From Fragilaria crotonensis (Eukaryota > Bacillariophyta > Fragilariophyceae > Fragilariales > Fragilariaceae), in NCBI GenBank assembly GCA_022925895.1, contig JAKSYS010000881.1:62001-126000 (forward strand): a DNA stretch of 64,000 nucleotides. The letters are read 5' to 3'. The notes beneath the pieces are model-generated. The model saw nothing but the letters and a program-made list of their open reading frames with translations, had not been told where the DNA came from and made no database searches. Position 1 is the stretch's first letter. Every line of letters begins with the position of its first letter. The position numbers were made by a program, and so were the translations under genes. Shown here piece by piece: positions 28,118 to 52,064 of the stretch.

Positions 28118-30427
28118 CTACGCAAACTTCGTGGCTTGGTTGAAATAGAGCTGTCGGATGCGCTCTCCGGTCTGTTCAACATCGTTGATCGTTCCGTGTT
28201 CGGCTGGATCAAACACCATGTACAGCTCCCGATCTCCGCTTGACGCAGCCCATACCCAACCATGGGGTAGAAAAGTACATAGCTCAACGCCGTCACCACC
28301 TGATTTGCCGTGGATCTCATTCATCATGTCATCAAATGCCGCGACGGCATCAGGCGCCAACCGCGTCAATAGCTGATGCCGAAGATCTGATGCAAGGGGA
28401 CCATCGTCGCTCTCATCTCGTTCCGTGGATATTCCACGAGTGGATTTCGCCAAACGCCCCATTCTCTCACTTTGGTTCAATTGCAAGACCACATCTTCCG
28501 TATGTCTGTCAATGTAGACCACATCGATCCCTTTTTCCTGCGATATTGCTGTGGGAGGCGTTGGCGCGGAATCGTCTTCTGCGACGGCGGCGGCTTCGTC
28601 GACACACACGGATAGAATCCACGATATCTTTGCAAGCAACTCAGCAAAAGGTTGTTGGCTCTCCGCATCAGTCCCTGCCTCAACTGACGCGGTCTGTGTC
28701 ACAGCTGCTGGGAACGCCATTGCCGAGAAATAGTCTTCATAAAGTGCGTTTGCGCTCCTTTCGAATGAATCTGATGATACTCCAATCTCACCACCAGCAT
28801 CGACGTAGACCAAAAAGGTGACGTCTTTGACAGTGTATCTGGCCACCTTCACTGGATAGTGCTTTCCGTCGACCAATACGTAAAACAGTGGAGTCCAGAC
28901 ATTTCCGAGGCCGGAATCGCTAATATCGTACAGCTCGTCCGCAATGTTTAGCATAGACAGCGGTGGTGAAGAAAGGTAGCTACCGAACGTTACAAGATCT
29001 TGCTGTTCGGTCTCGATCACGGTTCGATCCGAAAGGTTAAGCTGCAACAGCGAATCTTGAATGCTCTGTTGAAGCCTGCTAGTGGAGGTGGTTCGCCTTC
29101 GTAGTCGTAACGGCAGTTGCTTGCTTGGTTGGAGCTGCATCCTTTGTTCGTAGTAGGCCATATACCTCATGATTTCGCTAGCAGTTTTGTTTGGTATTCC
29201 GCTGTTGCTCGTCGAGTCCTCTTTCAGGTCCAAGAGGGACTGATTGAACAGCAAATTCCCTCGGTAGAATGTGCTGATCGCCACAAGATGCGGGTATGTG
29301 GTATCGGTTCCTTGACAGGAGTGCTTCAAGAGCGAAGAGATTGTTTGATGAATGTTATCCATTTCCGGAACACCCAGGCTAGCCGAACAAGTCGACTCGT
29401 CGATCGGACGAGGCACCATTTCCACAAGACACTTGTTGGACAAGGAGGCTTGCTGAAGAAAGTCATCGTAATGGGTTGTCAAGTCTCGACGGATGGATGT
29501 TATGGGTAACAACGAGCACAACTTGTTCAGGGTCAATGTGACGTTCTCCAGTTCCTCCTCAATCGTGTTTCGTTTCATTTCCATAAGGGAGGAGAGCTTG
29601 GATAAGCTGCTTGTCTTCTTGCGCATTGCCTTACGCAGCTGATACAACGTCTTCATCCCTGGGAATATGCACCCATCATTCACTAAGCATTCGTCGTTAC
29701 CGCAGCAGTTAGGGTTTTGCGCCTCCTGTTGAGGAAAGTCGGATTGAAATCCGGCATTGTCCTCCGACGACTCTGGCGGCGTGATATTGTCGAAATCAAT
29801 GTCAAATGATCTCTTGAACATTTCAAAAAAAGATGGTTGTGCAAGAAACTTCCGCTCTGCATCAGGTATGTGGTGTGAGGACTTGAGACGAGGCAAAATG
29901 CCACCTCCCCGAAGCAAGCAGAACATATCATGCGATCGTTGGATGGAAGTACGAACTGCAAGAGGACTGCTACCGTTTGAAACCTGAACAGCCGCCAGAA
30001 TCTCCCCATCTTTTTCAAGAGGGCAGAAGATGATAGTACTGTTCCCAAATCGGACTTCTCTTGTCCTATCGTCCTGGTCATCGCAAAAGGCGCAAGGAAA
30101 AGTGAGGAGCGCCTCACAAAGACCAAGGAATTGGACTGCTTGTTCATTTGAGTAAGCAGCAGTGTGAATACCTCCATCACCATCCTGAGGCTCCATGTTC
30201 CAGCAAACGCCTCGGTCTCCGGGGTAGAAATACAGGACGTGTTGCGTCAGCTCGTCCAAAGAACTAGATTCATCCATCGTTCCTTCACAAATTGTGGGCA
30301 AGTCGGGATAAAATATCAGAAATTTCTCCACGAATGGGTGCTGCTCCGCAGTGATCAGATTCTGCACATCTGATGATGATGGCACTCGTTGTTGCCTCCC
30401 TTTACCTCTCGATAGCATCCTTGTCAT
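28118..30427 (-). CDS. CCZ1-like vacuolar fusion protein (longin-domain Rab7 GEF subunit), 769 aa
   Basis: ATG 30427 (MTRMLSRGKGRQQ). The N-terminal region matches the first longin domain of the CCZ1/INTU/HPS4 group: FVEKFLIFYPDL near residue 33, HVLYFYPGDRG, then a VQFLGLCEALLTFPCAF helix, and an FGNSTIIFCPLEKDGEILAAVQVS strand pair. A low-complexity middle region follows. A second region (TPLFYVLVDGKHYPVKVARYTVKDVTFLVYVD) and a C-terminal block (GVELCTFLPHGWVWAASSGDRELYMVFD) look like the later longin domains. CCZ1 pairs with MON1 to activate Rab7 on late endosomes and vacuoles. Length exceeds yeast and human CCZ1 (about 480-700 aa). The identification rests on motif pattern; another HPS4-like longin protein is possible. 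Confidence 0.65.
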   Translation of the reverse strand: MTRMLSRGKGRQQRVPSSSDVQNLITAEQHPFVEKFLIFYPDLPTICEGTMDESSSLDELTQHVLYFYPGDRGVCWNMEPQDGDGGIHTAAYSNEQAVQFLGLCEALLTFPCAFCDDQDDRTREVRFGNSTIIFCPLEKDGEILAAVQVSNGSSPLAVRTSIQRSHDMFCLLRGGGILPRLKSSHHIPDAERKFLAQPSFFEMFKRSFDIDFDNITPPESSEDNAGFQSDFPQQEAQNPNCCGNDECLVNDGCIFPGMKTLYQLRKAMRKKTSSLSKLSSLMEMKRNTIEEELENVTLTLNKLCSLLPITSIRRDLTTHYDDFLQQASLSNKCLVEMVPRPIDESTCSASLGVPEMDNIHQTISSLLKHSCQGTDTTYPHLVAISTFYRGNLLFNQSLLDLKEDSTSNSGIPNKTASEIMRYMAYYEQRMQLQPSKQLPLRLRRRTTSTSRLQQSIQDSLLQLNLSDRTVIETEQQDLVTFGSYLSSPPLSMLNIADELYDISDSGLGNVWTPLFYVLVDGKHYPVKVARYTVKDVTFLVYVDAGGEIGVSSDSFERSANALYEDYFSAMAFPAAVTQTASVEAGTDAESQQPFAELLAKISWILSVCVDEAAAVAEDDSAPTPPTAISQEKGIDVVYIDRHTEDVVLQLNQSERMGRLAKSTRGISTERDESDDGPLASDLRHQLLTRLAPDAVAAFDDMMNEIHGKSGGDGVELCTFLPHGWVWAASSGDRELYMVFDPAEHGTINDVEQTGERIRQLYFNQATKFA

Positions 30428-30875
30428 GATAATATGTTTGATCGAATCTTATAAAATCCGTTGAGTAGGCGCTCAGTTATTTCGCATTTTCTTTAATGCA
30501 GTGCAAAGCGAAATCCAAAATTGTCAGTGAGCATTCGATCAAGACCACTCCTCTGCATTTGACTACAGTCTATCGAACTTGTGATGTCGAAATCCGAACT
30601 ATTGCTGCACTGTCTGATGATGTGATGAACAAATGCGAGCATCTGACAAGTTTGATGAGACATCTGATGACTGTGTCATACGGTGTACTCGTACATTGCC
30701 CAGTACCGAGAGTATGCTATTGTCATAGTGAGTAGTAGTACGTCGTACTTGTACCTGGTCGATTCTAACAATGACTTATCCTACGCGCATAAGTGTACGC
30801 TCTAGTATACTGGTCAGTGGTCAGCCGTCAGCCCGTCGGCCCCGTCGCCCCCTCTCTTCAAACGTACAGGACTAC

Positions 30876-33813: not shown

Positions 33814-34680
33814 GATGTTGACAGGGCTCGGAGGAAGCAAGTGAATCTTGGGTCAAGGCACAGCAATTGTCTTGACAGGGCTTGAAAGAAGTGAACCTTT
33901 GATCAAGGAACAGCGAACGAATTGCTGTTTTTTGTTTCATTCGATGCAAATCTGCAACAAGGGAACATTCTACGGTGCTTCTACAGGAAACGAATTTTCG
34001 AGCTAGTTCGATTTGAGTGCTCCGTAGAAAGATACGCATAATATGTATAATATATACCAAGAGGTCTAATATAGATCTTGAACAAAAAATTCTCATGAGA
34101 TCAACTGCGATTTCCTCGCACTCGATCTCGGTCTACCGGTAGTTGAACTTGGAGAACTTAAGGCATCGCCCCAAGAGACGCTATTTTTTCGGAACTCTCA
34201 GACAAGTCAAATTCACCATTAGAGGATATACGGACATTTTAGCAAAACGCATACTTTACGCATGGTGCATGGAGCATGATGTCGTCGGCACGTTGGACAT
34301 ATTGAGAATTATTATCAAAAAGCGCAGCGCTCGGCCAAGCCGGCCGGGTCAATTGAGTGCGTCGCTTCGTTTGGACGACTCGTTAGACCAAACATGCTGA
34401 GTTTCTCCGAGTGTAGTATTTTTCCTTTTTAAGTTTCATTTCTTGTCCGGCCACGTTGGACATTATGCCAGGGACATGCGGCATTCCTTCTTAACCTTAG
34501 TCGGCAGTCAATTCGGGAGTTATTCGATACATAGAACGGCTACTTCAACGTTATTAAATAACGTCTTGAAGGTAATCTTGCGTACCCAGAATCCCATCGA
34601 GCTCGCCAGTCACACCCCAACACCGTTCTGAGAGACAACAATCTTCAACACGCTTCGAGCGAAGTGGACGATTTGCAAAC

Positions 34681-34915
34681 CTTCTTCGGACGAAGACGAC
34701 AAGCGAAGAAGGTTTTGCAGTGACGCACACAATAATATTCTACGTTGGTTCAGTGTGCATTATGTACCAGACCAGACTTTTATGTGAACACCTTCTTCGA
34801 TGAATTAAGTAGAAAACGACTTCCAACGAAGAAGGTTTCTTCACACGAAGATGATTAGGAAGCAGGCTTCTTCGGGCGAAGAAGGTCCTTTCAACATTCT
34901 TCGTTCATAAGAAGG
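34681..34915. repeat. Cluster of CTTCTTCG / CGAAGAAG inverted motifs
   Basis: The octamer CTTCTTCG or its complement, alone or as a near-octamer, occurs about eight times in 235 bp. At about 34869-34886 two octamers face each other with a 2-nt gap, making an 8-bp stem. Others are spaced 15-60 bp apart in mixed orientation. It is not a regular tandem repeat. Confidence 0.55.
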
Positions 34916-35957
34916 TTTCGGAAACGCGCAAGCCAAGCTCACGAGCGCGAGTCTGACATTTTCGGTATGCTCAAAAACATTTTGCCGTTATCCATCATTG
35001 GTTTTAAAAACAGTCAACGGCAAAAGACGGTTATTCTTTCCGTCTTGAGAAGAATTTCCGCATGTCCCAGGTTTGTCGAGCGTGAACACGCGAAGAAGCC
35101 CATGATGACGCTTCCTGACGTCGTTTTGAGTAGGAATCTTATCGAAGCATACAAATCCCGTTTTCCCCTCGAACACGGTTTTGTTTTACATACAATTTAA
35201 GTATGCATTTTTGGCGGTGGCTACGGTGTAAGACGTACCGACTACTAGCTGGTAGTAGTACCACTGCAACGTAAAATGACAAGGACATCTACTTCACTAC
35301 TTCAATAGCATGTGCTGGAGTACTCCGGAGTGCTACTACCTGATACTGTACTAAATATGAACGCAGGCAACGCGAAGCCTTGAATCCAGAGTAAAAATAG
35401 CTAAATAACTCCTTTTTCTAACGTTCGAAAATCAGTTCACGCCGAGTACCCTACACTGGACCAGTAGTCAGTAGAAGTCAGTTTCCCGTACATGACGTAT
35501 GCCCTGACATCTGTTATTTACTACTGTGTAGGGTAGACGTTAGAACTCACCAGAATCCTTGAAAAGTCGTGTGTCGTGTACTTGTACTGTACGTAGTAAG
35601 TAGGTACATGTAACGAAATGTGCACTACGCTACTACACCACCGGTACCGTCTGCAGAATAACTGCAATTAACTACGAAATTCTCGAAGGCTGCTAAAGGA
35701 AAGGATTTCCGTAGTTTACTGTTGTCCGAAGTCCTGTCGTATGGACATCATTCCTCTGATAGCTGTAGCCTTGCTTAGCGCGTTGAAGGGTTGCCTTAAT
35801 CAATGGTGCAAGTGTATATCCAGCCAATTTCTCGTTGCCCAACCAGGCTTACTTAAGTGTGTCTCCAGGTCGTCGCACAGTAATTCCCTCACCCTAGGTT
35901 CGAGTTGTTCCTTGACGTCGTAGACTTCTCGAAGGTCCCGTCGAAGAGCTCTGGTGA

Positions 35958-36287
35958 GTGCCAGGCGTTACTGTTGTGCAGTTGTTCCATGTAGGTCTTG
36001 ATTTCGACTGGTCCAAAGTTTTTTCCCCATACCGACGTCGCGACCGACCCCTGGGGTTAAATAGTGTTGAGGAAAAGGGAATCGATAATACACATGATAC
36101 CGCGCCGACAAATAACACGTCACCTTCCCATGAAGTAAACGGTAAAAAGGAGACAAGTAGGATCACGTGGGCCGACGTAGTGAGAGGACATGTGGTCGAG
36201 AATGAAGCGAAAACAGAAAGTAGAAATAAGGGATTGTGCACGAGCGCACTTTCTCGAAACAATCCCGTTAGTTGGGACCGAAGTTAA
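35958..36287 (+). other. Weak open frame with retrotransposon-ORF1-like motif
   Basis: A 110-codon frame without ATG contains SRITWADVVRGHVVEN after a charged Asn/Thr/Lys stretch. (S/T)WADVVRG-type strings occur at the C-terminal end of some non-LTR retrotransposon ORF1/gag-like proteins, so this may be a LINE fragment. No reverse transcriptase is nearby. Chance is a serious alternative. Confidence 0.2.
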
Positions 36288-36542
36288 GACAAACGTCCGA
36301 CTACTTCCAGCATCGTTAGGTTCCCCAGGGCAAGATATACTGAGTTGAATGCTCCATTACGTATCCAAGGGAATTACTACTGTACTATATTGCAACAAAT
36401 AGCTGCATACTACGCGGCCGTCACGTAAAAATAGAAACGTAGTTTAGCACGAGTCCTTGACCTGTCCATCGCCCGCACCGAAATCCGCCGCCATTCGATC
36501 TGAAAAATCTGATTTACAATTTGACTCGTAACGAACGCAACG

Positions 36543-39500
36543 ATGGCCGACGAACTAGATGCGCTCTTTGGAGCCATTGATGGCGACAATGATAACGAGG
36601 AAGCTCTACCACAGCAGAAGGGCCCTCTGGATGAAAAGAGTGGCCAGCACACGGATAAAGGTATTGAAAGCGATGACAATCAAAATCCTTTGCTCTACAC
36701 GGCAGTAATGTCCATCCCGACGGCTTCTCATCTGAAAGAGAAGGAGCAAGAGGAGGAAACAAAGAAAAAAGATGAGGCGGTGGCGATAGAAGACAAGATG
36801 ATTGCGACTGGTACTGCACATGATAAGTCCGTGCGGTCCTATTCATCCTATCCTAAAAATCTGCCAGCTGACATGCAACTACCGAAAGTTACTCCTCCAA
36901 GCGAACCTTCCAAGACTTATAACTTCAAACTCGACCCCTTTCAGGCTCAAGCCGTCGGCTACATCGATATAGAAGAATCCGTGTTGGTTGCTGCTCACAC
37001 CTCTGCTGGAAAGACGGCCGTGGCGGAATACGCAATAGCAAAATCGCTCAAGGCCGGACAACGAGTCGTTTACACCTCTCCCATCAAGGCCCTATCCAAT
37101 CAAAAATTCCGCGATTTGCAAGAAGAATTTGAAGATGTTGGTCTCATGACCGGAGATATCACGATCAATCCCACTGCGACGTGTCTCGTCATGACGACTG
37201 AAATTTTGCGTTCCATGCTTTATCGAGGCTCGGAACTTATGCGCGAAGTGGCTTGGGTCATCTACGATGAAGTGCATTACATGCGTGATTCTGAGCGTGG
37301 AGTTGTGTGGGAAGAATCCATCATTTTACTTCCACACAAAGTGCGCTTCGTTTTCTTGTCAGCGACCATTCCCAATGCGTCTCAATTCGCGGATTGGATT
37401 ACTGAAATTCATCATCAGCCATGTCATGTCGTGTATACCAACTATCGTCCTGTACCACTTCAACATTATATATTCCCTCAGAATGGCGAGGGATTGCACT
37501 TGGTGGTAGATGAGAGGGGAAAGTTTCGTGAGGCCAACTTTCAAAAGGCCATGGCGACTCTGCAGTCGAGCAGTACGGACGGAGCCACCGCTGAAGCAAT
37601 GCTATCGTCGGGCAACGGAAAAGGGGTCAAGCGCAAACGAGCTAGCAATGGTCAGAAGAAGCAAGGTTCCGATTTGCACCGCATTGTCAAGCTTATCATG
37701 GAACGGAATCTCAATCCCGTTATCGTGTTTTCGTTCTCGAAGAAAGACTGCGAGCGTTATGCTATCGACTTGCACCGAGAGGATTATACCGATGAAGTGG
37801 AGAAGGATTTGATTAGTCAGGTCTACACAAGTGCAATCGAATCGTTGAGTGAAGATGATAGGCAGCTGCCTCAAGTTGTCGCGCTCTTGCCGCTCTTGAA
37901 ACGAGGCATTGGAATTCACCACGGTGGTTTGCTCCCGATTTTGAAGGAAATTGTTGAGATTCTTTTCAGTGAAGGTCTTATCAAGGCATTGTTTGCGACA
38001 GAAACCTTTTCTATTGGAATCAACATGCCCGCCAAGACTGTTGTATTTACCAACACAAGAAAGTGGGATGGAAAAGATTTTCGCTGGGTAACATCTGGCG
38101 AGTACATTCAAATGTCTGGTCGTGCCGGTCGTCGCGGTAAGGATGACCGTGGTATTGTGATCCAAATGGTAGACGAAAAGATGGAACCTGCTGTCTGTAA
38201 AGGAATCCTCTATGGAGATCCAGATCCTTTGAACTCGAGCTATCGCATCTCGTACAATATGTTACTCAACATGATGCGAGTTGAGGATATTGACCCGGAG
38301 TACCTCCTGCGGGCATCGTTCCACCAGTTTCAACGTGAGAAAGAGGTTCCTTCTTTATTAGCGCAAGCAGATGATCTGGAGCAGCAAGCATCGCAGATCG
38401 ATCTCGGCTCACCTGAAGAGGCTTCTTTGGTCTCGCAATATTACCAAATGGACCAGCAGCTTCTATTGACACGAAACAGCATGATGAAAATAGTCAGTAA
38501 ACCCGAACATATTCTCAAATTTTTGCAGAAGCCAGGTCGATTCCTGGACGTGAGCATTGACGGCGAATCTTACGGATGGGGTGCTTTAGTGTCATGCTCG
38601 AAGAAAATGGGAACTGGAACTGCTGGTGCTGCAGGCAAACTTGCGGAACAGACCAGTCAGCCCACTTGGAGTTTGGATGTCCTTCTCTTTTGTGTTGATC
38701 GTCAGTATGATTCTACGGTAAATGTTGGAAAAGTTGAAGATACTGAGAATGCGTCGATGCTCTGGCGGGGTACAAGTGGGAATTGCCGTCCTGCCTTACC
38801 TTCAGACGACCCGAAGGTGGTGTCCATGAGGGTCTTTACAATTGGGCTTGACTCGATCGATCGCATCTCTGCCGTTAAGCTGTTCATCCCGTCAGATGTT
38901 CACCCACACGAAGCTCGTAAGACCGTTGGCCTCTCAGTCCGGGAAGTACACAAGCGTTTCCCTGACGGTATTCCTCTCTTGGATCCAATTAAGGATCTGG
39001 GCGTCAACGCTGCAGAGTTCAAGTCTCTCATGGAACGAGCACAAGAGTTGACGACGCGCATGGCTAATCACAAGCTCGCAGCTGAAATCAGTGAGAAAGA
39101 GCGCATTGCCAAGGTTCAAAAGTTTGAACAACACTCGGAACTCTTGGAGCACGCGAAGCTCATCCGCCTGGAGGCCAAATCGTATGAGACCATTGCTATG
39201 AAGGAGGATCTCAAGAAGATGAAGAAGGTGCTTCGACGATTGGGACACGTTGATGCCAATGGGGTGATTCAGACCAAGGGCCGCACTGCGTGCGAAATCA
39301 ACACAGCCAACGAGCTCGTAGTGGTGGAACTCATCTTTACGGGAGTGTTCAACGATTTAGCAGTTGAGCAGTGCGTGGCTCTCCTTTCTTGCATGACTTT
39401 CGACGAGCGTAACAAAGACGACGATGACCCATTGAAGGGCCTCAAACCTTATCTCAGCAATCCATTTCTCAAGATGAAAGAGGTCGCACGCTCCGTCGCC

Positions 39501-40061
39501 AAGGCCATGATCGCCTGCAAAATCGAGGTTGACGAAGACGAGTTTCTTGACAAGTTCAACCCTGGAATGTAAGTGCCCAAGGTTCATTTGCGACGAATCC
39601 TGTGTTGATTTTGTGCGACGATTATAGATTATTACATGTCGTTCTCCGCGCATTGTTTGAGCCGCGGTCCTCACGGGCTGGAGCTTGCAATGTGCAGCAT
39701 GAGGGCGATCCGAAGAATTTCGCTGTGGATTAAAATGCGACCATACTCTCTGAGCACCCAATTGTTTGTTTCGGCGTTTTCATAGTTCTGACTGAATTCT
39801 CACCGAGTTTGGATTGTCTCCTCTCTTAGGATGGAAGCTGTGTTCGCATGGTGCAAGGGAGCCAAGTTCATTGAGGTCCAGAAGTTGACCGAGACCTTTG
39901 AAGGTACGACCATTCGAACCCTGAGGCGCTTGGAAGAATTAGTTCGACAAATCGCGAATGCTTCCGCAGCTATCGGAAACCAAGAGCTCCAATCCAAGTT
40001 CGAGAAGGGCTCCGAGCTCCTGAAGCGAGACATCGTGTTTTGCAGCTCTCTGTATTTGTAG
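36543..40061 (+). CDS. MTR4: Exosome/TRAMP RNA helicase MTR4, 1085 aa, two exons
   Basis: Exons 36543-39568 and 39830-40061; the 261-nt intron (GTAAGT ... CTCTCTTAG) splits an ATG codon and joins KFNPGM to MEAVFAWCKGA, restoring the family's conserved C-terminus. After a hydrophilic acidic N-terminus, helicase motifs are intact: Q-like FKLDPFQAQAV, Walker A AAHTSAGKT (about 150-158), TSPIKALSNQKF, DEVH (242-245), SAT (273-275) and motif VI QMSGRAGRRG. YRPVPLQHYIFP and LHLVVDERGKFRE are MTR4-type rather than SKI2-type. The arch region and DSHCT end (RRLEELVRQIANAS, KRDIVFCSSLYL) are present. Length fits yeast and human MTR4 (1073 and 1042 aa). MTR4 unwinds RNA for the nuclear exosome, alone or in TRAMP. 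RRP46 and TRF4 genes follow on the same strand. Confidence 0.95.
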
Positions 40062-40521
40062 GGTAGATCTTGTAATCAGTATCATACAAATAAAGGCCGC
40101 CTTTAGCTACAGAGTGTCAATTAAGCTGTCACATAACTCTGTGAAGAATTATGGTTTTGGATAGGGCGACGCGATGAACATCGTTTGGAAATGATTGACC
40201 AACCTGATGCGATATCATCATTTGATCGAGGTGAAAATGAATTTGCTATAACTCGACGATGACATCAGTTTTGATTCCAGTCGTGCAGTGCTACTGGAGT
40301 ACTTGTGTACTAACGTATGTGTACTGTAGTATGGTGAAGCGTGTATGCGTATGGAAACTGATACATACAGTACCAGTACCAGTACCAGTACCAGTACAGA
40401 TGTTACTGTACGTTTTCCCAACCACCACCAACACCAATCCATCCCTCAGAATTTGTGGAGACAAACTATTCACTGTGAGCGTATTAGTCGGTTCCATCCA
40501 TCGTTTGTCGTCGTGATCAAA
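40062..40521. other. MTR4-RRP46 spacer with CAGTAC hexamer run
   Basis: A 460-bp spacer. Positions 40368-40397 hold five uninterrupted copies of CAGTAC. The frame through it is open and in phase with RRP46, but the protein-like sequence starts only at ATG 40522, so I treat it as upstream, noncoding DNA. Confidence 0.5.
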
Positions 40522-41237
40522 ATGGCGGGACCTTCATCGACGTTTCGTCCAGACGGACGATCTAGTGGAGGATCCCTGCGTCCACTGTCGTGTGAAGTGT
40601 CTCCACTGCAGCGAGCCGATGGATCAGCGCTGTGGAAATCGAGATCGACACACGTGTTGGCAGCTGTCTACGGCCCCATTGCGCCTCAGAGACCGTCTGT
40701 CGAAAAGTCAGATTCGGCTGTCATTTCCATCATTTTCAACGGCCGTCGTGAATACGAATCTTTGTTGCAGACCGTTTTGGAGGGATGCATATGTGTGGAG
40801 GAGTATGCTCGCTGTGTCATCGAGGTCGTTCTGCAAACGATCCGCGATGATGGATCCGTTCTGAGCTGTGCCGTGCATGCGACTGTCGCGGCACTCATGG
40901 ATGCGGGCATTGCCATGACGCGTATGCCGTTAGCAACGTCAGTGGCGCTGTCAGTATCAGGGGGTCATGGGGTGATGATGATGATGACGCAGTGCTATTG
41001 TTGGATCCGAACGAGGAAGAAGAGCAACATCAAACGAGTTTGACTCTCATAACATCGAATTTAGAACCGGATTGTTTGCTTGGATCTATGTGTGAGGGGA
41101 AGCTATCCTTGGAACGATTGCTGGCATGCCAGGAGGCAGCTTCAAGAGCAACTCCCGCGGTTTTGGCCTTTATGAGACTCGCTATTGAACAGAAGGTCAT
41201 GCGCCAGTCGCAGACCCTTTGGGCAGATTCGAATTAG
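40522..41237 (+). CDS. RRP46: Exosome core subunit RRP46/EXOSC5 (RNase PH-like), one frame shift
   Basis: ATG 40522 (MAGPSSTFRPDGRSS). The RNase PH fold of RRP46/EXOSC5 is clear: LRPLSCEVSPLQRADGSALW, THVLAAVYGP, ARCVIEVVLQTIRDDGSVLSC and ATVAALMDAGIAM. The first frame drifts into Met/Lys-rich nonsense after SVSGGHG and stops at 41043. The next frame supplies the expected C-terminus from about 40980: a DDDDAVLLLDPNEEEE start, SLERLLACQEAASRATPAVLAFMRLAIEQ, ending at 41237. One extra G in the G run at 40969-40972 would join them. No intron gives the join. RRP46 is a ring subunit of the 9-subunit exosome core. An essential gene is unlikely to be broken, so I suspect a sequence error or an allele; translational frameshifting is less likely. 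Confidence 0.8.
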
Positions 41238-42265
41238 GGGATGTGTAACACAGATTTTATGAAGAATATTGCGCATGCACTTCACCCAGGCATAATCGAA
41301 AATGTGAAGTGGGACCAATGCTCAAATGCATTCAAGATTAATGCCAATTGTTGGTGATTACCGGTAGTTTCTATAAAGGCTAGCAGGATGTGGCATTCAT
41401 TGCAGATTTTCACCTCGCAGACTTGATAACGTCGTCCGTCAGAAGAATCCCAGCAACTTACTCTCGTGCTAAACAACGATTCTAGATATCGGATTCGCCC
41501 CTCGCCAGGTGGCAGACGCTTGAATGTCCGCAGGAAATGAACCATTGAATTAGGTCCTTTGCGGATCCTTCATGACGACGCATCACGTGCAAACGCCTTC
41601 ATTCATAACAAGGCGGACCCTGGTTATCAATCGCTTTCCAGGCTTGCAATAATCAATTATGATTTCACCGCCGTCAATAAAAATGCCTTTGCAAACTGAC
41701 AGATACCGCGCAAGTGTGGGTTGCTGGGCGGATTTATTGTGATCTGCCTTTTCGTACTGGTTGGTGTGCTCTACGAAAATGCTTGTAAAGCCATGGGACC
41801 TTCGAATTCAGTGCAACAAAATGTTTAAGTTTTGACCTTCGATGGGATGAAGGCTGAAGTACATCTTGATATATTATTTTCGATTTGGTCGCGGGTCGCG
41901 GTGTCGCGGATCGCGGATCGCTTCCTATTTCGACCTATAGATGCATCTGGAATGTGGAGTGCAAGTTGACGGTAAATGGGATATGCACATGGCATATGCA
42001 TACTACCATAGGAGGGTTTATAAAACGAGCAACTACTAGGCGTCTAGTAGAGCATACTACCTATGCATATGGCAAAATATGGTACGTAGTACTGTAGTAT
42101 GAAATCTATCAACGTTGACACGTTGACAGACAACTGTCGACGTTCTACGCTCGCCCTACTAGCTAGCAATAGGTTATGTGGTGCAGTGGATACTGTAGTT
42201 GCAGTTCTACCGTGAGATACTGTTACCAGTCGTAGACATCAAACCTCTCACAGGCTCCGACAACG
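41238..42265. other. RRP46-TRF4 spacer
   Basis: About 1 kb without a supported gene. A small GC-rich simple repeat (GGTCGCGG/GGATCGC) lies at 41887-41925, followed by TAGTA/GTAC-rich DNA up to the TRF4 start. An 87-codon minus-strand frame has no recognisable content. Confidence 0.4.
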
Positions 42266-43651
42266 ATGACGGCTCCAGCGACGACGAATGGCGTTGACGA
42301 GGACTGGCGCAATGCGGACTTTTTGACATTCAGCGGAGACGAAGAAGACAGTGACGAAGTGGATGAGGATCAGACTTCCAGTATCAACAAACGACTGCCC
42401 CAAGGAGACCCTCGCGCCTCGTCAGATTCCAAAGTGCCCTCCGATTTACCTCCTTGGATGACAGTCGCCGCGTCGAAGAACATCAATCCTCTGGTACGAC
42501 TTCACAACGAAATCGTTGATTTTTGTAAGCTTATGGAACCGAAACCGTCGGAGTTGAGTAAGCGGGAAGAATGGGTCGTGAGATTGCGTGCCTTGGCACA
42601 ATCGTGCTTCGGGTCGGACTGCAAAGTAACTGTATTTGGTTCTCAAGCTACCGGTCTTTTATTGCCAACATCGGATGTCGATGTAGTCATTGAGCTTCAA
42701 GAAGAGGACCATAACTTGACGGAAGGTGAAGGAAAATCACAGGAGCAAGTCGACATGGAGAATTGGACCGTGACAAATTCCAATTCGACCAAATCGCCAT
42801 TGCAGCGACTCGCGAGTGCGATTCGCGACGAATGGTTTGAAGAATTGGAGTATCTTGAAGTGATTGAGAACACCCAAGTTCCTCTTGTGAAATTCACCAC
42901 CCTCCAGTGTCTATCGATAGATGTGTGTTTCAATCAAGACAATGGTCCCAAGGCTGCGCAATTGATGACCACGTACCTGCAGGCCATGCCACCCCTCCGT
43001 CCCCTCACATTTGTGTTGAAATACTTTTTGGCGTCTCGTGGTCTCAATGAGCCGTACAGTGGAGGAATCGGTAGCTACTTGCTCCAACTCATGATTGTTT
43101 CATTCTTGCAACATCGTGAACGTGATGCCTACAACAACAATCGTGGCAGCGTCTATAATTTGGGATGTCTTTTGTTGGAATTTCTGGAGTTATACGGAAT
43201 GGACATGAATTACATAACCGCTGGAATATCAGTCCGGCATGATGGCTTTTACTTCCGCAAAGGCGCCCTCGATCGTAAAGAAACCTTTTGTTATCCCAAC
43301 CGACCCTTCTCGTTGGCGATGGAAAATCCTCTGGATCCGACCATGGACGTTGGGAAGGCATCGTTCCGCATTGGGATTGTACAGCGGTCCATGGATGTGG
43401 CGTACAAGGTCTTGTTGGCACATGTCGCAGAACCGTTCCATACTTTCGACGGCGCTGTGGCATCGTCAATTCTCGCCACCATCCTCCCAATATCTCCCGA
43501 AATGCTGGCACGAGCAGCAAGACCAGCAACAACTAGTGGCAAGGGAGTAGCATCAATGTTGACGCGAGGTATTGCTGCAAAGATGGACAACGATGGCGAC
43601 GGATTGCTATCTCCACCGCGAAAACGGCGACGTCGAGAAGCTGATTTATAA
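42266..43651 (+). CDS. TRF4: Non-canonical poly(A) polymerase TRF4/PAPD5-like (TRAMP), 461 aa
   Basis: ATG 42266 (MTAPATTNGVDED). The nucleotidyltransferase signature is intact: VFGSQATGLLLPTSDVDVVI, with G125-S126, the first two catalytic Asp at 137 and 139, and the third in LSIDVCFN (D219). The central domain reads PLRPLTFVLKYFLASRGLNEPYSGGIGSY, then the PAP-associated domain with FLQHRERDAYNNNRGS, LGCLLLEFLELYG and a GISVRHDGFYF block. The C-terminus is basic (PPRKRRRREADL), a likely nuclear signal. TRF4 adds short oligo(A) tails to aberrant nuclear RNAs so that MTR4 and the exosome degrade them. No RNA-binding domain is present; yeast Trf4 relies on zinc-knuckle Air proteins, none of which is seen beside it. 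Intronless. Confidence 0.92.
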   Translation: MTAPATTNGVDEDWRNADFLTFSGDEEDSDEVDEDQTSSINKRLPQGDPRASSDSKVPSDLPPWMTVAASKNINPLVRLHNEIVDFCKLMEPKPSELSKREEWVVRLRALAQSCFGSDCKVTVFGSQATGLLLPTSDVDVVIELQEEDHNLTEGEGKSQEQVDMENWTVTNSNSTKSPLQRLASAIRDEWFEELEYLEVIENTQVPLVKFTTLQCLSIDVCFNQDNGPKAAQLMTTYLQAMPPLRPLTFVLKYFLASRGLNEPYSGGIGSYLLQLMIVSFLQHRERDAYNNNRGSVYNLGCLLLEFLELYGMDMNYITAGISVRHDGFYFRKGALDRKETFCYPNRPFSLAMENPLDPTMDVGKASFRIGIVQRSMDVAYKVLLAHVAEPFHTFDGAVASSILATILPISPEMLARAARPATTSGKGVASMLTRGIAAKMDNDGDGLLSPPRKRRRREADL

Positions 43652-43789
43652 TACGCATTTACTCTCAGTAACGCAGTGTGCTAAACTCCTGTTACAAAGT
43701 CCCTGATCGACATCCTACTATTACAGTTCAATATCTAACATTGTTCTTCTCACCACACTAGTACTAGGCGTATCTGAGCTTGAGCATAC

Positions 43790-45220
43790 TTATAATTCCT
43801 CCCATGTGATGAGTTGCCTACACACGGGGCATTCTTGAGATTGCTCCTTCCATTGATAAAGACAGGGCAAGTGAAGGTATGTCCTATTCGTCCCGCATCC
43901 ACAAAGGGTTGGAATGCGAGGATTGTCTTGAGAAAACCCCTCCAAACAAATAAGACATTCATCACTATCGACGCTTGATGCCACAGCGAGATCGTCGTTC
44001 TTATCGTCCACCAGCCGATTGTCTTCGCGTCCTGCGGGCTTGCCTTTAACCCACTGTCCGACGAAAAACAAAGTATCATCTGGATTGCGGCGCTCTCCGT
44101 AACCGTGAGGGAGTCCCTTCTCGTACTTCCCAACGTAACTACTGCCACACGCAAACACCTCCTCTCCGTAACCGTGACGAAGGTTGCGCAAGAATTCGCC
44201 TTCGTATGTGGCTCCTGATGCTGATATGAGAACCCCATTCGAACCTTGCATGAGACCATACTTGAAGGGTCCTTTGTATACTTCCTCGTCATCAAATACC
44301 AAGAAGCCTGTACCATGCGGAATATTACCATTCAATGCAGTTCCAGTATATCGACCTTTGCGTCTATGAGGGGCAGCTATTGTCCATTCGATGTTGCTGA
44401 CATCTTGCGTTGTGATGTCCTCATTAGACTTGACCGAGTTCGTTGTCGTCACTCTCGCTTCAACATTGGTCACGGGAGAAGTGAATGGCGTCGATGGAAC
44501 CGAAATGACCGTGCTCTCCCTTGATCCTAGGGTAATCGTGTCGTCTTCTCCTATCCCTTCTCCCGCAATTCGCAAATCTTGTATGGCTTGATCAAGTTTC
44601 CTGCGCTCATCCTCGAGGGCTTCTAATTTCTTCCGACGAAGAATATCAGATGCTGATTCTTCCTGTTGATCATCAATAGTATCATCATGATCGTGATTGT
44701 TCTCATAATCATGATGAATGTGAACCTGCACCACAGGAGGTGGGGGCGAATTGGCAGGGTTCTCGGACTCTAAATCGAAACTGTTGCAAGCTGTTGTTTC
44801 GATCGTTGGTGTAGTCGTAGTCGTCGTTGTTGCAGCTGTTGTCGTTGGTGTTGTGGAATGCTTGCTATCCACCGAAATCACTTTCGAACCAGCTAATTTG
44901 GCCATCGCCTGCGACGAGGATTCGTCTGTCCTTGAGATGCTAGCATCACGACTGGTGGTGGTACTCTTCTTTCCACCAACGGGGTCTCTCTTATTAGACT
45001 GGCGCAATGACTTGGTTGCCGCTCGGGCATCTGGAGTCGATGGTTTTTGTACAATTAACCCTTGGACGTAGTTGTTTCGAGAGAAGCCCTTTCCTATATG
45101 ATCTCTCGCAGTAGAGTTGCGCAATGACTTGGTCGTCGTTTGGACTACTGGAGGCGATGGGTTGTTCGCAATCAACCCTTGAACGAAGTAATCTCGAGAG
45201 CAGCCCTTTCCTTTAAACAT
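43790..45220 (-). CDS. MORN-repeat protein with C-terminal RING-CH-like finger, 476 aa
   Basis: ATG 45220 (MFKGKGCSRDYFVQG). The N-terminus contains a tandem duplication: GCSRDYFVQGLI...TTTKSLRNS and GFSRNNYVQGLI...AATKSLRQS (about residues 5-36 and 44-76). A Thr-rich and then acidic/coiled linker follows (EDERRKLDQAIQDLR). Residues about 289-395 hold about four MORN repeats (YKGPFKYGLMQGSNG, YEGEFLRNLRHGYGE, YVGKYEKGLPHGYGE, FVGQWVKGKP). The last 55 residues are a C4HC3-like finger: CLIC, CGC, then TYLHLPC and CPVC. MORN repeats often bind lipids or serve as protein scaffolds, and the finger suggests E3 ligase activity. It is tail-to-tail with TRF4, 138 bp apart. A shortened relative lies at 53564-54337. 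Confidence 0.8.
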   Translation of the reverse strand: MFKGKGCSRDYFVQGLIANNPSPPVVQTTTKSLRNSTARDHIGKGFSRNNYVQGLIVQKPSTPDARAATKSLRQSNKRDPVGGKKSTTTSRDASISRTDESSSQAMAKLAGSKVISVDSKHSTTPTTTAATTTTTTTPTIETTACNSFDLESENPANSPPPPVVQVHIHHDYENNHDHDDTIDDQQEESASDILRRKKLEALEDERRKLDQAIQDLRIAGEGIGEDDTITLGSRESTVISVPSTPFTSPVTNVEARVTTTNSVKSNEDITTQDVSNIEWTIAAPHRRKGRYTGTALNGNIPHGTGFLVFDDEEVYKGPFKYGLMQGSNGVLISASGATYEGEFLRNLRHGYGEEVFACGSSYVGKYEKGLPHGYGERRNPDDTLFFVGQWVKGKPAGREDNRLVDDKNDDLAVASSVDSDECLICLEGFSQDNPRIPTLCGCGTNRTYLHLPCLYQWKEQSQECPVCRQLITWEEL

Positions 45221-45607
45221 GGTGAAAATGTATGATTAGTACGAATTCCACAAGTGACGTCGATTAAAAAAAGCGAACGCGTACAGGGCTGTACTGCATG
45301 ATTCGTACCTGGCATCTGGCAGGATGGAATGAAACAAAGATTCGAAAGCATGTATCAAGTCGAATCTCTTTTTTTTTTTATTCCGCGAATTGAGAATCCC
45401 AGAAAATTCTCAACCCCAACCCCAACAGACATTTTAGGTCTACCGAAAACCTGCCCGTACACTGTACATATACTGAATACTGAATGGTACCATGGTACAG
45501 CTGTACACAAATTATGCTATGACCTCACTCACCTTTTGACTCTCTCTCCATGACACAATGGAACGGATGGAAGGTCTGAATAGAAAACGCTCACTCAAAT
45601 CTACGAC

Positions 45608-45622: not shown

Positions 45623-45694
45623 TGCCTAATGCGCTTAGAATTAATGCGCTTATAAAGCACTTGCACCAATCAAAATTGTCCGGGACGTCATCAT
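45623..45694 (+). repeat. Left terminal inverted repeat of the MULE
   Basis: Begins TGCCTAATGCGCTTAGAA and ends GGGACGTCATCAT. It is the reverse complement of 52736-52807 with one mismatch (a T/C near base 55). It contains a second-level repeat of AATGCGCTTA, which may be a transposase-binding site. Confidence 0.9.
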
Positions 45695-45926
45695 TTTTGG
45701 GAGGGGTTGCCTCTACAAAAAAGAGTCATTTGACCTCGTCTGAAAATATCAATGGATTCAAATCAGGTTGGATTCAAATTTCCCACCTGCCGAACGAGCG
45801 CGCTAACCTTCACGGATATGTTCATAAAATTTTCAAAACGCAAATTTGCACTCCGATAGCTAGCTACACCGGCAGTGCAATTCACCAACTTACAGAAACC
45901 CGACTCCTGTTTCAACTTTCAGCACC

Positions 45927-48900
45927 ATGGACGAAGCTACCACTGACCATAATCATGCTGATGACCTCTTCTACTCTGATGCAGAGATGGGAAATCTACT
46001 CCACATCAAGAGTGAGTTCGAGAGCGAGTTTCCTGTAGGGACTGTGTTCCCAACCCGAAGGCAACTTATTGATGCCATGCGCGATAAAGCATCACAGCTT
46101 GGGTTCTTTGTGATTGACCGTGGCTATTCTGTTCTGTGCTTTGAAACAACAGCACGAGACTCGGAGAACGAAAGGAGACAGAAAGCTCGAGAAGAACTCT
46201 CGAGAGAGAATGGCAAAATCTATGTACCAAGAAAAGTTGCAAAATCCAAGTGTGGATGTGAATTTAAGGCCTCATTTGTTCAAAAGAGAGGCACCGCACA
46301 GGATGAATTCAGGATCTCAAAGGTGCAATACATGCATGGAAAGGGGTGCAAGCCTTCAGGGGAGCAATTCAAGGCAGCATGGAGGAGTGGTGGACATGCA
46401 TCAAAGTATGTAGCTCGCACAAAGAATTTAAAACTGCACACTATTGTTCAGCTGCTGGCTAGCGGTCAAAAGCCAAGTACAAAAACAATGAGGGCTATGC
46501 TTCGTGATATGCTACCAAAGGGGTTTGACGTGTCCAGCAAGTTCATCAACAATGTGCAAGCAAAGGTCAGGGCAAAGATATCTGATGGAGCATTTGATAC
46601 ACTCCTTGCACAAGGAACCGTGTCGAATGAAGAAGCTGATTTCATTTTAAGTGACAACCTACCCCCAGAGTACCTCTCTATTGCTGAGGAAATTGCCAGT
46701 GATACCTTGAAGGATGCTCTGTCTGACCCGGGAACCAAATGCTTGGTTGTTCACTACCTATGTCAACTACACAGAAAGGATCCATCATTTCTCTTTGATA
46801 TCCAGCGCGATGAAAATGACACAATTGTTGGTATTTGTTGGCAAACAGCCACAATGAGGTTTGATTGGGACTCATGTGCATCTTGCATTTCGTTGGATGG
46901 TATGAAACGTCAACTCAACCATTTCTCCTACCCATATATTGCGGTTACCTCTTTGGATGGCTATGGCAATATGGTTGTATGCGCTGAAGCCATCGTCATC
47001 TCTGAGCGGATAGAGGCATACGCATGGCTGCTTAGGTGCTGCAATAACTTCTCCTCCAACCGAAAATTGGATGGCCTTCGAGTTATCTATGGTGATGGGT
47101 TAGTAACATGTGACAGTCTGCTAGTATCCTCGGCATTCAAGACTCTTGTTCACTCCTTGATGATATACACCATCTTTTGTCGGCAGACTGTGGCACATGG
47201 TATAAACAATTCGGTGTCGACAAGTGGAATTATTATGGCGGAATGCTGAGAGCTCTGGTGCATGAGTCATACACTTTGGAAGACTACGAGAAGACAAGGT
47301 TAATGATTCTTACAACAATGGAAAGTCGGGATGAGCCCCAAAGCTTGAACAATTACTTCAACAACATTGTACATGCGGGAAGGCATAGATTTGCACGTTA
47401 TTCAGTGTGTGCAACACCCTGCAATGAGGAGCTTCTTGGATCATCAGTTGCTGAGTCCAACCATGCTTCCTATGTTGCTCGCATTGGTGGTGGCAGTTGG
47501 GATGACCCAGCAACGCAGGTTAAAGATTGTATCCAGAGGATGTCAGAGCTTTCTAATAAGAGGGCAAGGCTTCGGGATCAATACAGGCGACAAAGTGCTG
47601 CAAATAGTCATACTGCATCGGATGAACAAATCAAAGTTATGCTCCTCAAGCTATCAAAACGCGGTTTCAAAATCTGTGAGGAACAGTACCGGAAGTCTTC
47701 TGAGTATTACACTCCCCTTGCGGGTACCAGTAGCGAGCATCAAGATGCAGCACCAATGATGGAAGTCATATGGCAAGGCAAATCATCAAAACCTTCTCGT
47801 ATCATTGATGGGCGCAAGTGTTCATGTAATGTCTTCATTGCCTACCAACTGCAATGCAGGCATCTCTTTGCCTACCACAAGCGATCATTTCAGTTGGATC
47901 TGGTCCATCCAAAGTTTCACGCACAGCCACTGACTATTGCAGCCCCAAATCCAGAGTTTACCAATATTCTTTCGATGTGGGTGATAGACAGGGATACATA
48001 TATTGGAAGTATTGGTGATAAGTTGGAACTCGAGTCCTGGAACATCATGAGGGTGCAATTTTGAACGGTGAAATTCCTAGTACAGAGTGTTCTATCAGCG
48101 ATGGCGGTGATGATGGAGATAAAGAAAATGATGTGTACTTTGGAGAGGAGGGTAAAGAAGGTGACGATGCAGCTCAGGAAAGGACAATGGAAGGAATAAC
48201 TGGCAATTTGAAGTCAACAAAGAGGAATGTGACCTATCGGGACTTCACAGATGTGGCAAATAGTGTTGCAAACCTTGCATTAAGCCTTCCCAGCGAAGAC
48301 TTGCGTTGCGAATGCTTAGGGGTCTTAGTTCGCATGCGAGATGCCCTGAGTATGTCTGCTTCTTCTGGCAACCAGTCATCTGTACCATTGGTTGGCTTCA
48401 TGTCAGACGCTGATGCATTTCTGGCGGCATTTGGGCCAAATGCTGAGTTTAGGAGAGAAGGCATCTTTGCACCACTTGCTGGTGGTGATCCTGGCAACAA
48501 CTTCGAAATGCAGCGCCACAATTCTGGGAAGGTGCGGCACAAACGCTTGACCTCCATGAATGAGAGAAATGCACGGGCATCAAAAATAGCAGATGCCCGC
48601 AACAGGCCTTCTCAATGCTCATTTTGTGGTTCGACACAGCATACCATTAAACGATGTTCTGTTATGGACAAGGCGGCTTTTGTTGGAAAAAAGAATAGTA
48701 TGGGGTGGAATAAATGGTATCGAACTTTGGGCAATCAAAATTGCCATGAGGTTACGTTGCCAAGTGCTGGTAATGCCTTGAAACTCACTCGCGAGCTACA
48801 AGACAACCTTCCACCTCCCTCTCATACCATTCGCCATCTTTCTATAAGGTCAGTCCACTTCTCCAATGAGGCCATGGAGTATATTTCACGTCCAAACAGC

Positions 48901-49080
48901 ATCTACAGACACAAGAATTCTGAGCACTCGCAGATTCCATCCCCAGACAACAATATTGTGGGAGTTCAGCTGATTGAGCGAGGCGGAAACTTTCGGAGGA
49001 AAGACAATGAAAGCAGTGATGAAAACATCACATTTTATGTACGAGCAAAACAGTCCAAAATGGATGGAAAAGGCATTTAG
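45927..49080 (+). CDS. Mutator-like transposase, in three successive frames
   Basis: ATG 45927 (MDEATTDHNHADD). The first frame (to 47249) has an N-terminal domain resembling a FAR1/WRKY-GCM1-type zinc-binding fold (SKCGCEFKASFV), then the start of a DDE core (CISLDGMKRQL, VIYGDGL). The second (about 47150-48064) supplies the catalytic glutamate segment (GSSVAESNHASY) and a SWIM finger (CSCN...CRH: KCSCNVFIAYQLQCRHLF). The third (about 48061-49080) ends in a CCHC zinc knuckle (CSFCGSTQHTIKRC). That order matches MULE transposases. Frame changes near 47150 and at 48061-48064 break an otherwise continuous protein of about 1,050 residues. No convincing intron fills either break. Either the copy is dead or the sequence has small errors; the first two frames overlap. 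Confidence 0.85.
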
Positions 49081-49234
49081 TGACTCCCAACTATTTGTCT
49101 ACGTCAAACAAAAAGAACTGTGAATGAGCAGGAGAAGCAGCACGATATACATAAGAAATTGTAAGGTTGTCAGAAAACAATTCATACGCTATGGAGCAAT
49201 AACGTTATAACGCTTGTGTATAACGTTTTTGTGA

Positions 49235-51217
49235 CTAAGGAAAACCGTAGAATATCTTCGTAATAGTTATGAAAATGATTATCGTCATACAAACTTTCAT
49301 ACCAAGCGCTTTCTCCTCATCCTTTCCAGCTACAAGCTCAACACCTTTGAGAGCCTGCTTCTTAGTGCACAAATCCCTACCAGCACTTACAACCTTCTCT
49401 TTGGCGGCAGTGAAAGTTCCATAGAGATTGTTCTGAAATTGCTGTCGAGCCCCCTTCATAACTCTCTCACCGTTTGGACCATCAGGCATGGAAATGGAAG
49501 TACAGTGACGCAATACTCTTCCATCCCATGATATTGCCACTCCATGACAAAGACGAACTGCAAGACCTGAAAAGATCGCCCCATCCGGCTTTACACCATG
49601 GACATTTGGCAGGATAAAGTACCAGTTAAAGCCCACTGACGGGTTGTCTTCTGTCCAAACTGCATACCCCTGTGAAGCGTCATGGATATCATAATGCGAA
49701 GCATTACCCAGATTGACACTCATGTCAATCGTATATCCAACACGTTGAACACCATCTCCATTCATTGGTTGCACAGGTTCCAATCCAGAGTCAGCCTCAA
49801 GACCCAGGATGACACCAAGGACATCGGGGAAACATGCCTTCCCAATCGAATGCAATGCGACAACCATATCACGAAGCACGCCCTGATGAACACTCCGATT
49901 GGTAGCGTACGGGACAGGGTTCATGTCACCCTTTGTGATGTTTGTGCCAAGGGCATGCATGGACCCAACATCACCCTTTCCAGCACGTGCATTAGAAGTC
50001 TGAACACCACTGTGGATTGCCAAATTACAGGTTGTTACGTCATCTAACCATGTACCAGCCCCTGGGTGGAGGGTTTGGACATGCCGAATGCTAAGGACAG
50101 TCTGCCTGTCCTTGCAATTCCCCTCATCGTCAATGGCAATAATCACATCAATGACAGGATCACAAGTCGGGTCAAGGATCCAACATGTTGGCGGCATGTT
50201 GAAATGATGGCAACCGAGTGCATAGTGGCGCCCCCCTTCCCTGGCTGAGGTGGCCGATGCTAACTTGCAATTGTACAGAGCTGCAAGCTCTGCCTGTGGC
50301 CATGTCCCAGCATCCTCACCAGAGAATACATCTGGGGCCATCTTCGGACCCATCCGATCGGAACATTGGTGCGCATGGTATATCTTTCGTGCATGGCCAT
50401 TATGGCAAGTGGACCTCAAACCAATTCTCCAGATGGAAACCAGCTGACCGTCATCCATGAACAACCTCTTCACATAACCGTCCCCAAAATTGTAAAGTCC
50501 TGACCCATCGCAATGATGGCGATGGTGGAGACGAAGCCAACTCATATCCAGGGGGATCAAAGTATTATCGACACCCGAATCAGGGTGATGTCTTTCCCTT
50601 GCACAGTAAAAAATCCCAGCATCAGGAATGAAAGCCAAGCATGTCCGGAACTTGAAGTCAACACTGTCCATCAAGTCATCGTCCTCAAAGCACCTCATCA
50701 CAGCCACAATGTCTGGATCAATAAGAACTCCTTCTCCAGCCGATGGTGCAGGGGATGAGGAGGGACTCATCGATCGGTTCAAAATCACATCCATGAGGTA
50801 CACCTTCTGCACAAAATCGACAGATGCTCCAGCATTAGCATTGTGTTCCAGGAACATATCCGAAATTGAAGAGAGTTGCAGGACATCGTAATCATGTTGG
50901 TAAACAGTATTAAGTGAATTCAGAATGAAGGACATAGGAGTGCCACAAAGCTTCACATCACCAGGTTTACGACAATCATTCTCAACATCCAGGCGGAACG
51001 TCTTCCTGAATAGTATTTCGTCAGAAGAGCCAGGCACAAATGCCAAGCCCTTAACAAGCAGAGCCAGCATTTGTTCCTGCGATGGGAGGAATTCACGGGG
51101 CATGCGATCAGGAAGTTTGTCGGCATTCTCAATGCTGCTGTCCCCCTTCGGTTTCTTCTTGTTGACATATTCCGCGTCAGGAGTGTAACCATCACTATCA
51201 TTACAATGGCTGTCCAA
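49235..51217 (-). CDS. Transposon-borne protein with putative 2OG-Fe(II) dioxygenase core
   Basis: A 660-codon frame whose first listed codon is TTG; the frame is open further upstream, through a basic RGKKRRARKKR stretch (likely nuclear signal), to about 51320, but no ATG was found there, so the start is unresolved (another frame upstream offers an acidic Asp/Ser-rich lead-in and a frame shift is possible). The C-terminal part shows a double-stranded beta-helix pattern: ASHYDIHDASQGYAVWTE with HxD (H508, D510), NWYFILPNVHG, then LCHGVAISWDGRVLRHC with a distal His (H558) and a following Arg. Spacing (about 48 residues) fits Fe(II)/2-oxoglutarate oxygenases. The N-terminal 450 residues are Cys/His-rich (RLHHRHHC, CHNGHARKIYHAHQC) and not recognised. 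I recall similar multicopy proteins in diatoms and haptophytes. Function is inferred. Confidence 0.6.
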   Translation of the reverse strand: MDSHCNDSDGYTPDAEYVNKKKPKGDSSIENADKLPDRMPREFLPSQEQMLALLVKGLAFVPGSSDEILFRKTFRLDVENDCRKPGDVKLCGTPMSFILNSLNTVYQHDYDVLQLSSISDMFLEHNANAGASVDFVQKVYLMDVILNRSMSPSSSPAPSAGEGVLIDPDIVAVMRCFEDDDLMDSVDFKFRTCLAFIPDAGIFYCARERHHPDSGVDNTLIPLDMSWLRLHHRHHCDGSGLYNFGDGYVKRLFMDDGQLVSIWRIGLRSTCHNGHARKIYHAHQCSDRMGPKMAPDVFSGEDAGTWPQAELAALYNCKLASATSAREGGRHYALGCHHFNMPPTCWILDPTCDPVIDVIIAIDDEGNCKDRQTVLSIRHVQTLHPGAGTWLDDVTTCNLAIHSGVQTSNARAGKGDVGSMHALGTNITKGDMNPVPYATNRSVHQGVLRDMVVALHSIGKACFPDVLGVILGLEADSGLEPVQPMNGDGVQRVGYTIDMSVNLGNASHYDIHDASQGYAVWTEDNPSVGFNWYFILPNVHGVKPDGAIFSGLAVRLCHGVAISWDGRVLRHCTSISMPDGPNGERVMKGARQQFQNNLYGTFTAAKEKVVSAGRDLCTKKQALKGVELVAGKDEEKALGMKVCMTIIIFITITKIFYGFP

Positions 51218-51750
51218 ATTGTCGCCACTTCTGGCAGCCCTGATCCTCTTCTTCCTAGCACGGCGTTTCTTACCCCTGGTGCTCTGTTGTTGCGGTTCTT
51301 GCTTCTCCTCCCGAGCATTTTCGAATTTTTGTCATTATCAGAATACAAGGTTGCAATATGCATATCCACATCGCTTCCTTGGCCAGAATCGTTGCAAACA
51401 TCATCGCAACCAATGCCACAACTGTCCCTCCCGACACGTCTCCCACTCTTTGAGGCAGCTCCACAGGATAAACCCTTGGGATTGCCCCAGGTTGAGAACT
51501 GCAGTTCGACTTGAAGAGGTCTTCCTCTTGGCACCAATCAAAGCACGGTCATGTGGTGGGTTGGGATGCATCATCACAAGAACACCACAACCACCCACGC
51601 CTGACAAGAACACACCACTGCTTGCCACTCCTTACGGCAACAATCAGCCAGCACCAAGTCAGGTACTTGATGCAATTCCTTGTCGCCCCCCTGGCCTAAG
51701 CACAACCACCACTTACAGAACAAGTCAAGAGTCGAGTCCTTGTCACCTCG

Positions 51751-52064
51751 CCTGAGCGCAACCGCCGTTTGTCGCTGTATGGCAACAAGCAGCTATCGCC
51801 ACGTCAGGTAGTTGACAATCCTCAACTGTGATTCCTCGGCAGCTGGCTCCAGTGCCGATCACTTGTCACCTGGCCTGAGCGCAACCACCGTTTGTCGCTG
51901 TATGGCAACAAGCAGCTATCGCCACGTCAGGTAGTTGACAATCCTCAACTGTGATTCCTCGGCAGCTGGCTCCAGTGCCGATCACTTGTCACCTGGCCTG
52001 AGCGCAACCACCGTTTGTCGCTGTATGGCAACAAGCAGCTATCGCCACGTCAGGTAGTTGACAG
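51751..52064 (+). repeat. 123-bp tandem repeat inside the MULE
   Basis: CCTGAGCGCAACC starts at 51751, 51874 and 51997, exactly 123 bp apart. The first two units and the first half of the third are nearly identical (GTTTGTCGCTGTATGGCAAC, GCCACGTCAGGTAGTTGAC). Older, diverged copies may continue on both sides. 123 is a multiple of 3, but no coding use is evident. It could hold the promoter of the minus-strand cargo gene or be a simple expansion. Confidence 0.8.

Follow-up and report, generated by a model that had tools for sequence, protein, structure and literature searches.

Are three genes of nuclear RNA surveillance that stand side by side in a diatom held together by selection, or have they met by ordinary rearrangement? 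The question is raised by a 64-kb stretch of the Fragilaria crotonensis genome (C108:62001-126000, on a contig of 902 kb; hereafter the window), in which MTR4, RRP46 and TRF4 lie head to tail on the plus strand at 36543-43651. They encode the helicase of the Trf4/Air2/Mtr4 polyadenylation complex (TRAMP), a subunit of the exosome ring and the TRAMP poly(A) polymerase, respectively, and thus form a functional cluster in the descriptive sense of functionally linked, non-homologous genes that are adjacent. On balance we lean towards a lineage-specific adjacency of independently transcribed genes, brought about by ordinary rearrangement and with no shared regulatory device. If the order is conserved across diatoms, selection would here have kept genes of nuclear RNA surveillance together, which is unusual, and the trio could help to show how the cell balances TRAMP with the exosome; if it is not, it would illustrate how close functional groupings can turn up by chance when genomes and gene sets are read in large numbers.

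Identity of the three genes

The genome (62.1 Mb in 881 contigs) was surveyed by six-frame family searches of the contigs, in which only the best candidates are scored and genes split by introns can be missed. An earlier note, made from the letters of this stretch, had placed the three genes in a row on one strand; domain matches and matches to solved structures bear out their place, strand and identities, the latter matches setting each gene apart from its paralogues. The motifs AHTSAGKT, DEVH, SAT and GRAGRRG are present in MTR4, and FGS, DVDV and SIDV in TRF4.

MTR4 (36543-40061, plus strand) has two exons, giving 1085 residues after splicing. Exon 1 (36543..39568) encodes the helicase core, the stalk, the beta-barrel/KOW region and the first part of the DSHCT domain, and exon 2 (39830..40061) the rest of DSHCT, ending in ...RDIVFCSSLYL before the stop; the intron between them (39569..39829, 261 nucleotides) runs from GTAAGT to TTAG. 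The frame first proposed for this gene closed at a stop (39570-39572) that lies inside the intron, and the end of MTR4 is here corrected to 489 bases past the end of that frame, with exon 2 supplying the conserved C-terminus. The second half of DSHCT is matched separately at C108:101831-102043 (window 39831-40043). Pfam matches comprise MTR4_beta-barrel (137.7 bits), the MTR4-like stalk, DEAD and DSHCT. Among solved structures, human MTR4 (947.5 bits) and yeast DOB1 (937 bits) far outscore human SKI2 (505 bits), which, together with the beta-barrel (KOW) arch, places the protein with MTR4 and not with SKI2.

Genes with a DSHCT domain were found at three places in the genome (C108, C186 and C809). 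The C186 gene was considered as a second MTR4 and rejected: with 785 bits to SKI2 and 634 bits to MTR4/DOB1 it is SKI2. The match on C809 (61.9 bits) is more distant and may perhaps be ISE2-like. No second MTR4 was found in the 62.1-Mb genome by the six-frame DSHCT search. Degenerate stretches similar to MTR4 residues about 934-1019 occur twice, at C108:38768-38979 (minus strand) and C237:20695-20867 (plus strand), with the frame broken identically in both places, perhaps a piece of MTR4 copied with a repeat.

TRF4 (42266..43651, plus strand) is a non-canonical poly(A) polymerase gene of the TRF4 type, of one exon and 461 residues. Its best solved match, at 113 bits, is yeast TRF4 (entry 3nyb, under the name Poly(A) RNA polymerase protein 2), followed by URT1 at 50.7 bits, which, with its three motifs, puts it in the TRF4/5 (TENT4) group. 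We take these motifs to hold the three catalytic aspartates. No second intact TRF4 was found in the genome, only a broken partial copy and a weak match (24%) on C575.

RRP46 (40522..41237, plus strand) is split over two frames, the first with RNase PH domain 1 (40522-40974; RNase_PH, 76.3 bits) and the second with domain 2 (40935-41234; RNase_PH_C, 22.7 bits), and is the genome's best RNase PH-family match. The top solved match of the first part is a rice protein named by its locus only (76.9 bits); further down are human RRP46 (59.2 bits), archaeal Rrp41 (54.8) and human RRP41 (42), and the lowest named are yeast RRP46 (30.5) and human MTR3 (29). It is closer to RRP46 than to RRP41, RRP42, RRP45 or MTR3, the margin over Rrp41 being modest by score, and the only Rrp41 model of NCBIfam reaches 70 bits on it, far below the cut-off of 318.7. 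The second part matches human RRP46 first (residues 164-236), weakly (19 bits, E 0.014).

By exclusion the predicted identity is firm, the genome's RRP41, RRP43/Rrp42-like, RRP45 and MTR3-like genes being elsewhere. Other RNase PH matches lie on C6, which is RRP41 (117 bits to human RRP41 vs 42 to RRP46), on C871, which is RRP43/Rrp42-like (70 bits to archaeal Rrp42, 64 to human RRP43), on C483, which is RRP45 (139 bits to human RRP45), on C321, where a piece of 70 residues only is nearest to MTR3 (31.8 bits), and on C457, where a frame of 1008 residues with two RNase PH domains is PNPase-like. Since the four other matches of exosome type look like RRP41, RRP43/Rrp42, RRP45 and MTR3, no other RRP46 was found.

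RRP46 is a standard member of the nuclear exosome, which agrees with the match found here, and at the protein level nothing unusual was noticed in the diatom trio when set against TRAMP and the nuclear exosome. MTR4 and TRF4 are standard members of TRAMP (PMC4731217).

Origin of the adjacency

Under the reading that we favour, MTR4, RRP46 and TRF4 would be housekeeping genes that serve the nuclear exosome pathway, are unrelated to one another and happen to be neighbours on one strand, each probably transcribed from its own promoter. Their products would cooperate as they do in other eukaryotes, with TRF4 adding a short A tail, MTR4 unwinding the RNA and feeding it in, and RRP46 serving as a structural subunit of the exosome ring. 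The adjacency itself would most likely stem from ordinary genome rearrangement in a region of mobile elements. A partial duplication, an element with inverted ends, an interspersed repeat and a fragment resembling a long terminal repeat (LTR), all described below, indicate that the region has been rearranged; such reshuffling agrees with an adjacency of recent origin, without dating it.

The rest of the pathway is not arranged in this way. Matches to ECR1_N lie on C661, C669 and C875 (those on C661 and C669 have identical scores, are both near a contig start and are perhaps one gene twice), matches to RNB on C647, C273, C211, C694, C245 and C718, and a match to PMC2NT, the mark of RRP6, on C150. 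Beside the three genes, no other exosome or cofactor gene was found on C108 in searches with RNase PH, DSHCT, ECR1_N, RNB and PMC2NT. With the remaining genes dispersed over other contigs, clustering is no rule for such genes here.

Several observations weigh against an unselected adjacency. The three share a strand, and in yeast MTR4 and TRF4 are components of a single complex (PMC4731217). The regions upstream of RRP46 and TRF4 have in common seven ten-base words (the random mean being 1.3, with 0.9% reaching seven) and three twelve-base words (0.5% of random reach three), the control being 1000 non-overlapping random triplets of equal lengths from the window, coding DNA included. The adjacency is also improbable for the exosome/TRAMP set alone, when points are placed uniformly over 62.1 Mb and any three within 5723 bases are counted, strand and contig ends being ignored: for 16, 18 and 22 loci the simulated chance is 1e-5, 4.5e-5 and 5e-5, and that by formula 1.4e-5, 2.1e-5 and 3.9e-5.

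How much these last figures mean depends on the set chosen. The same model gives 8.7e-4 by formula and 7.7e-4 by simulation for 60 points, 0.033 and 0.030 for 200 points, and 0.27 and 0.23 for 400 points, and by these broad-set figures a loose 'RNA processing' triple is unremarkable. The adjacency is thus beyond chance for the narrow gene set but not clearly so for broad sets. The narrow set, though a natural one, was defined after the cluster had been seen, and the window is one of an unnumbered series that were read; given this post hoc choice and a broad-set chance of 0.03-0.23, chance remains a good explanation of the adjacency.

Competing explanations

That the trio is a selected functional cluster, in which co-regulation would act through a shared chromatin domain or through promoter sharing at a distance, is a serious possibility that we hold tentatively and rate short of probable. 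In its favour are the low chance of the triple in the narrow set and the word sharing of RRP46 and TRF4, which 0.5-0.9% of random pairs reach. The longest word common to their upstream regions, GTACTGTAGTATG (13 bases), stands on the same strand before both genes, at 40321..40333 and 42089..42101 (plus strand), beginning 201 bases before the ATG of RRP46 and 177 bases before that of TRF4, and its 12-base core has three matches in the window with at most one mismatch, where 0.08 are expected.

Against this, GTACTGTAGTATG was not found upstream of MTR4, and it is unspecific, with 142 sites in the genome (88 forward and 54 reverse). Twelve of these, all on the plus strand, were read on their downstream side: a same-strand frame of at least 110 residues follows in 10 of the 12, vs 76% of 1000 random stretches, and an opposite-strand frame of that length in 9 of the 12, vs 81%. 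As long frames are no more frequent near the word than at random, nothing marks it as a gene-start element. It is an abundant repeat or element, and weak evidence for joint control of RRP46 and TRF4. A role as a private promoter signal was rejected on account of the 142 copies. Compared over the whole genome, the word is about nine times commoner than its reversed control, which has 16 sites.

The sharing of words does not extend evenly to MTR4, whose upstream region has no ten-base word in common with that of RRP46 and five in common with that of TRF4 (7.2% of random reach that). No word of nine or more bases is common to all three upstream regions, and the one eight-base word that is, GTAGTATG, has its like in the 35% of random triplets that share at least one. 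Two further twelve-base words, each common to two of the three upstream regions, occur twice each in the window, and neither was found in 234 kb of other loci of the same genome.

A selected cluster would not be without precedent. The earlier note had called functional clusters unusual in eukaryotes, which is too strong as a general statement: according to PMC3500266, ribosome-biogenesis genes form adjacent pairs significantly often in some eukaryotes, above expectation in S. cerevisiae, C. elegans and P. falciparum and, less strongly, in T. thermophila (P 0.024). The same source gives no significant adjacency for human, fly, Giardia and Arabidopsis (P 0.069), which counts against a selected cluster. 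For the yeast pair MPP10-MRX12, promoter elements are shared and adjacency is required (PMC6001612). Pairs of this ribosome-biogenesis (RRB) regulon resemble the diatom trio in that functionally linked genes are directly adjacent, and they occur in tandem, divergent and convergent orientations (PMC3500266 and PMC6001612). The regulon consists mainly of pairs whose co-regulation has been measured in yeast, whereas the diatom case is a triple. The note's further remark, that no example had been described for TRAMP or exosome genes, was not contradicted by searches of the open-access literature, in which no relevant report of clusters of these genes turned up; neither 'exosome' nor 'MTR4' occurs as a word in the main text of PMC3500266 or PMC6001612.

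A broader form of selection, in which diatoms keep a conserved MTR4-RRP46-TRF4 cluster that ties together the doses of the helicase, the ring subunit and the polymerase, perhaps within a wider neighbourhood including TRM6, mutation of which gives rise in yeast to a well-known substrate of TRAMP, seems unlikely to us. In searches for relatives, the MTR4 protein matched 25 stretches of viral contigs and an alignment of MTR4 and SKI2 matched 89, none of them a relative; against genome contigs the alignment matched at least 592 stretches, of which 582 were confirmed, and each of the best 80 of the 582 has a bacterial or archaeal title, with at most 42% identity. About 10.5 kb upstream of MTR4 stands TRM6/Gcd10 (24531-26072, plus strand; Gcd10p 179.7 bits, TRM6 structure 217 bits), which encodes the non-catalytic subunit of the tRNA m1A58 methyltransferase. 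In the yeast trm6-504 mutant, the nuclear exosome degrades the initiator tRNA, which is hypomodified, and MTR4 takes part in this as a member of TRAMP (PMC4731217). Because two long opposite-strand frames intervene (26095-27669 and 28118-30448), the proximity of TRM6 to MTR4 is probably a coincidence.

There would be no functional trio at all if RRP46 were a decaying copy, as its failure to be read in one frame could suggest; we consider this very unlikely. It is the genome's best RNase PH-family match, with no other RRP46 found, and both of its domains keep detectable similarity to RRP46. The two matches abut at residues 163/164 of the human protein, which leaves little or no sequence missing. 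The shift of frame falls at about 40955-40992, where a G run is followed by GAT repeats, and a single slip at such a place suits an error of sequencing or assembly. Introns were sought with GT or GC donors, AG acceptors and a length of at least 26 nucleotides; judged by eye, none keeps the conserved residues at an ordinary length, the nearest candidate being a 29-nucleotide GT-AG gap that joins both parts and is very short for an intron. The change of frame may thus be a sequence error, an allelic lesion or a very short intron.

An operon-like unit, with a single transcript or read-through over two or three of the genes, is suggested by the common strand and by the 460 nucleotides between MTR4 and RRP46 (40062..40521; longest stop-free run 91 codons), and is hardly credible given an AATAAA at 40089, 28 nucleotides past the MTR4 stop, another at 41676 between RRP46 and TRF4, and a second gap of more than 1 kb (41238..42265; 1028 nucleotides, longest stop-free run 95 codons), which suggest separate transcripts. 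In archaea, Rrp4, Rrp41 and Rrp42 of the exosome are encoded in a prokaryotic operon, which is not known to include TRF4 or the eukaryotic MTR4. The diatom trio is like it in having exosome genes side by side, and unlike it in that the genes are spaced and the first of them, MTR4, has a GT-AG intron.

Neighbouring elements and side observations

The unselected adjacency favoured above lies among several mobile or repeated elements. Upstream of MTR4, an interspersed repeat of about 0.6 kb (about 34463-35076) accounts for 26 of the 40 genome matches listed, 77-96% alike, and 158 bases separate the end of the LTR-like fragment (about 36063-36384) from the start of MTR4. Relatives of this fragment are listed twice on each of 11 contigs, at a spacing of 5.7-5.9 kb in 7 of the 11, as would be expected of the two ends of an LTR element.

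Beyond TRF4 follow a MORN/RING gene (43790-45235, minus strand) and an element with 72-base inverted ends (45623-52807; ends at 45623-45694 and 52736-52807, 98.6% alike). A match to a Mutator-like element (MULE) transposase lies inside it (45864-47246), below the cut-off with an E value of 0.007, and the element is probably a DNA transposon of MULE type. It sits between the two copies of a direct duplication (43058-43965 and 52859-53739, 85% alike) that takes in the 3' part of TRF4 and the RING gene's 3' end. The second copy (plus strand) is about 10 kb downstream of TRF4 on the same contig; its TRF4 part is frame-broken and has stops, and the second RING gene (53564-54364, minus strand) keeps a long frame.

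Silicon transporters of the family Silic_transp, which marks diatoms, gave 19 matches in the genome (the best at 646 bits), and one open frame of 1456 residues (C97:29749-33762) carries three silicon-transporter domains.

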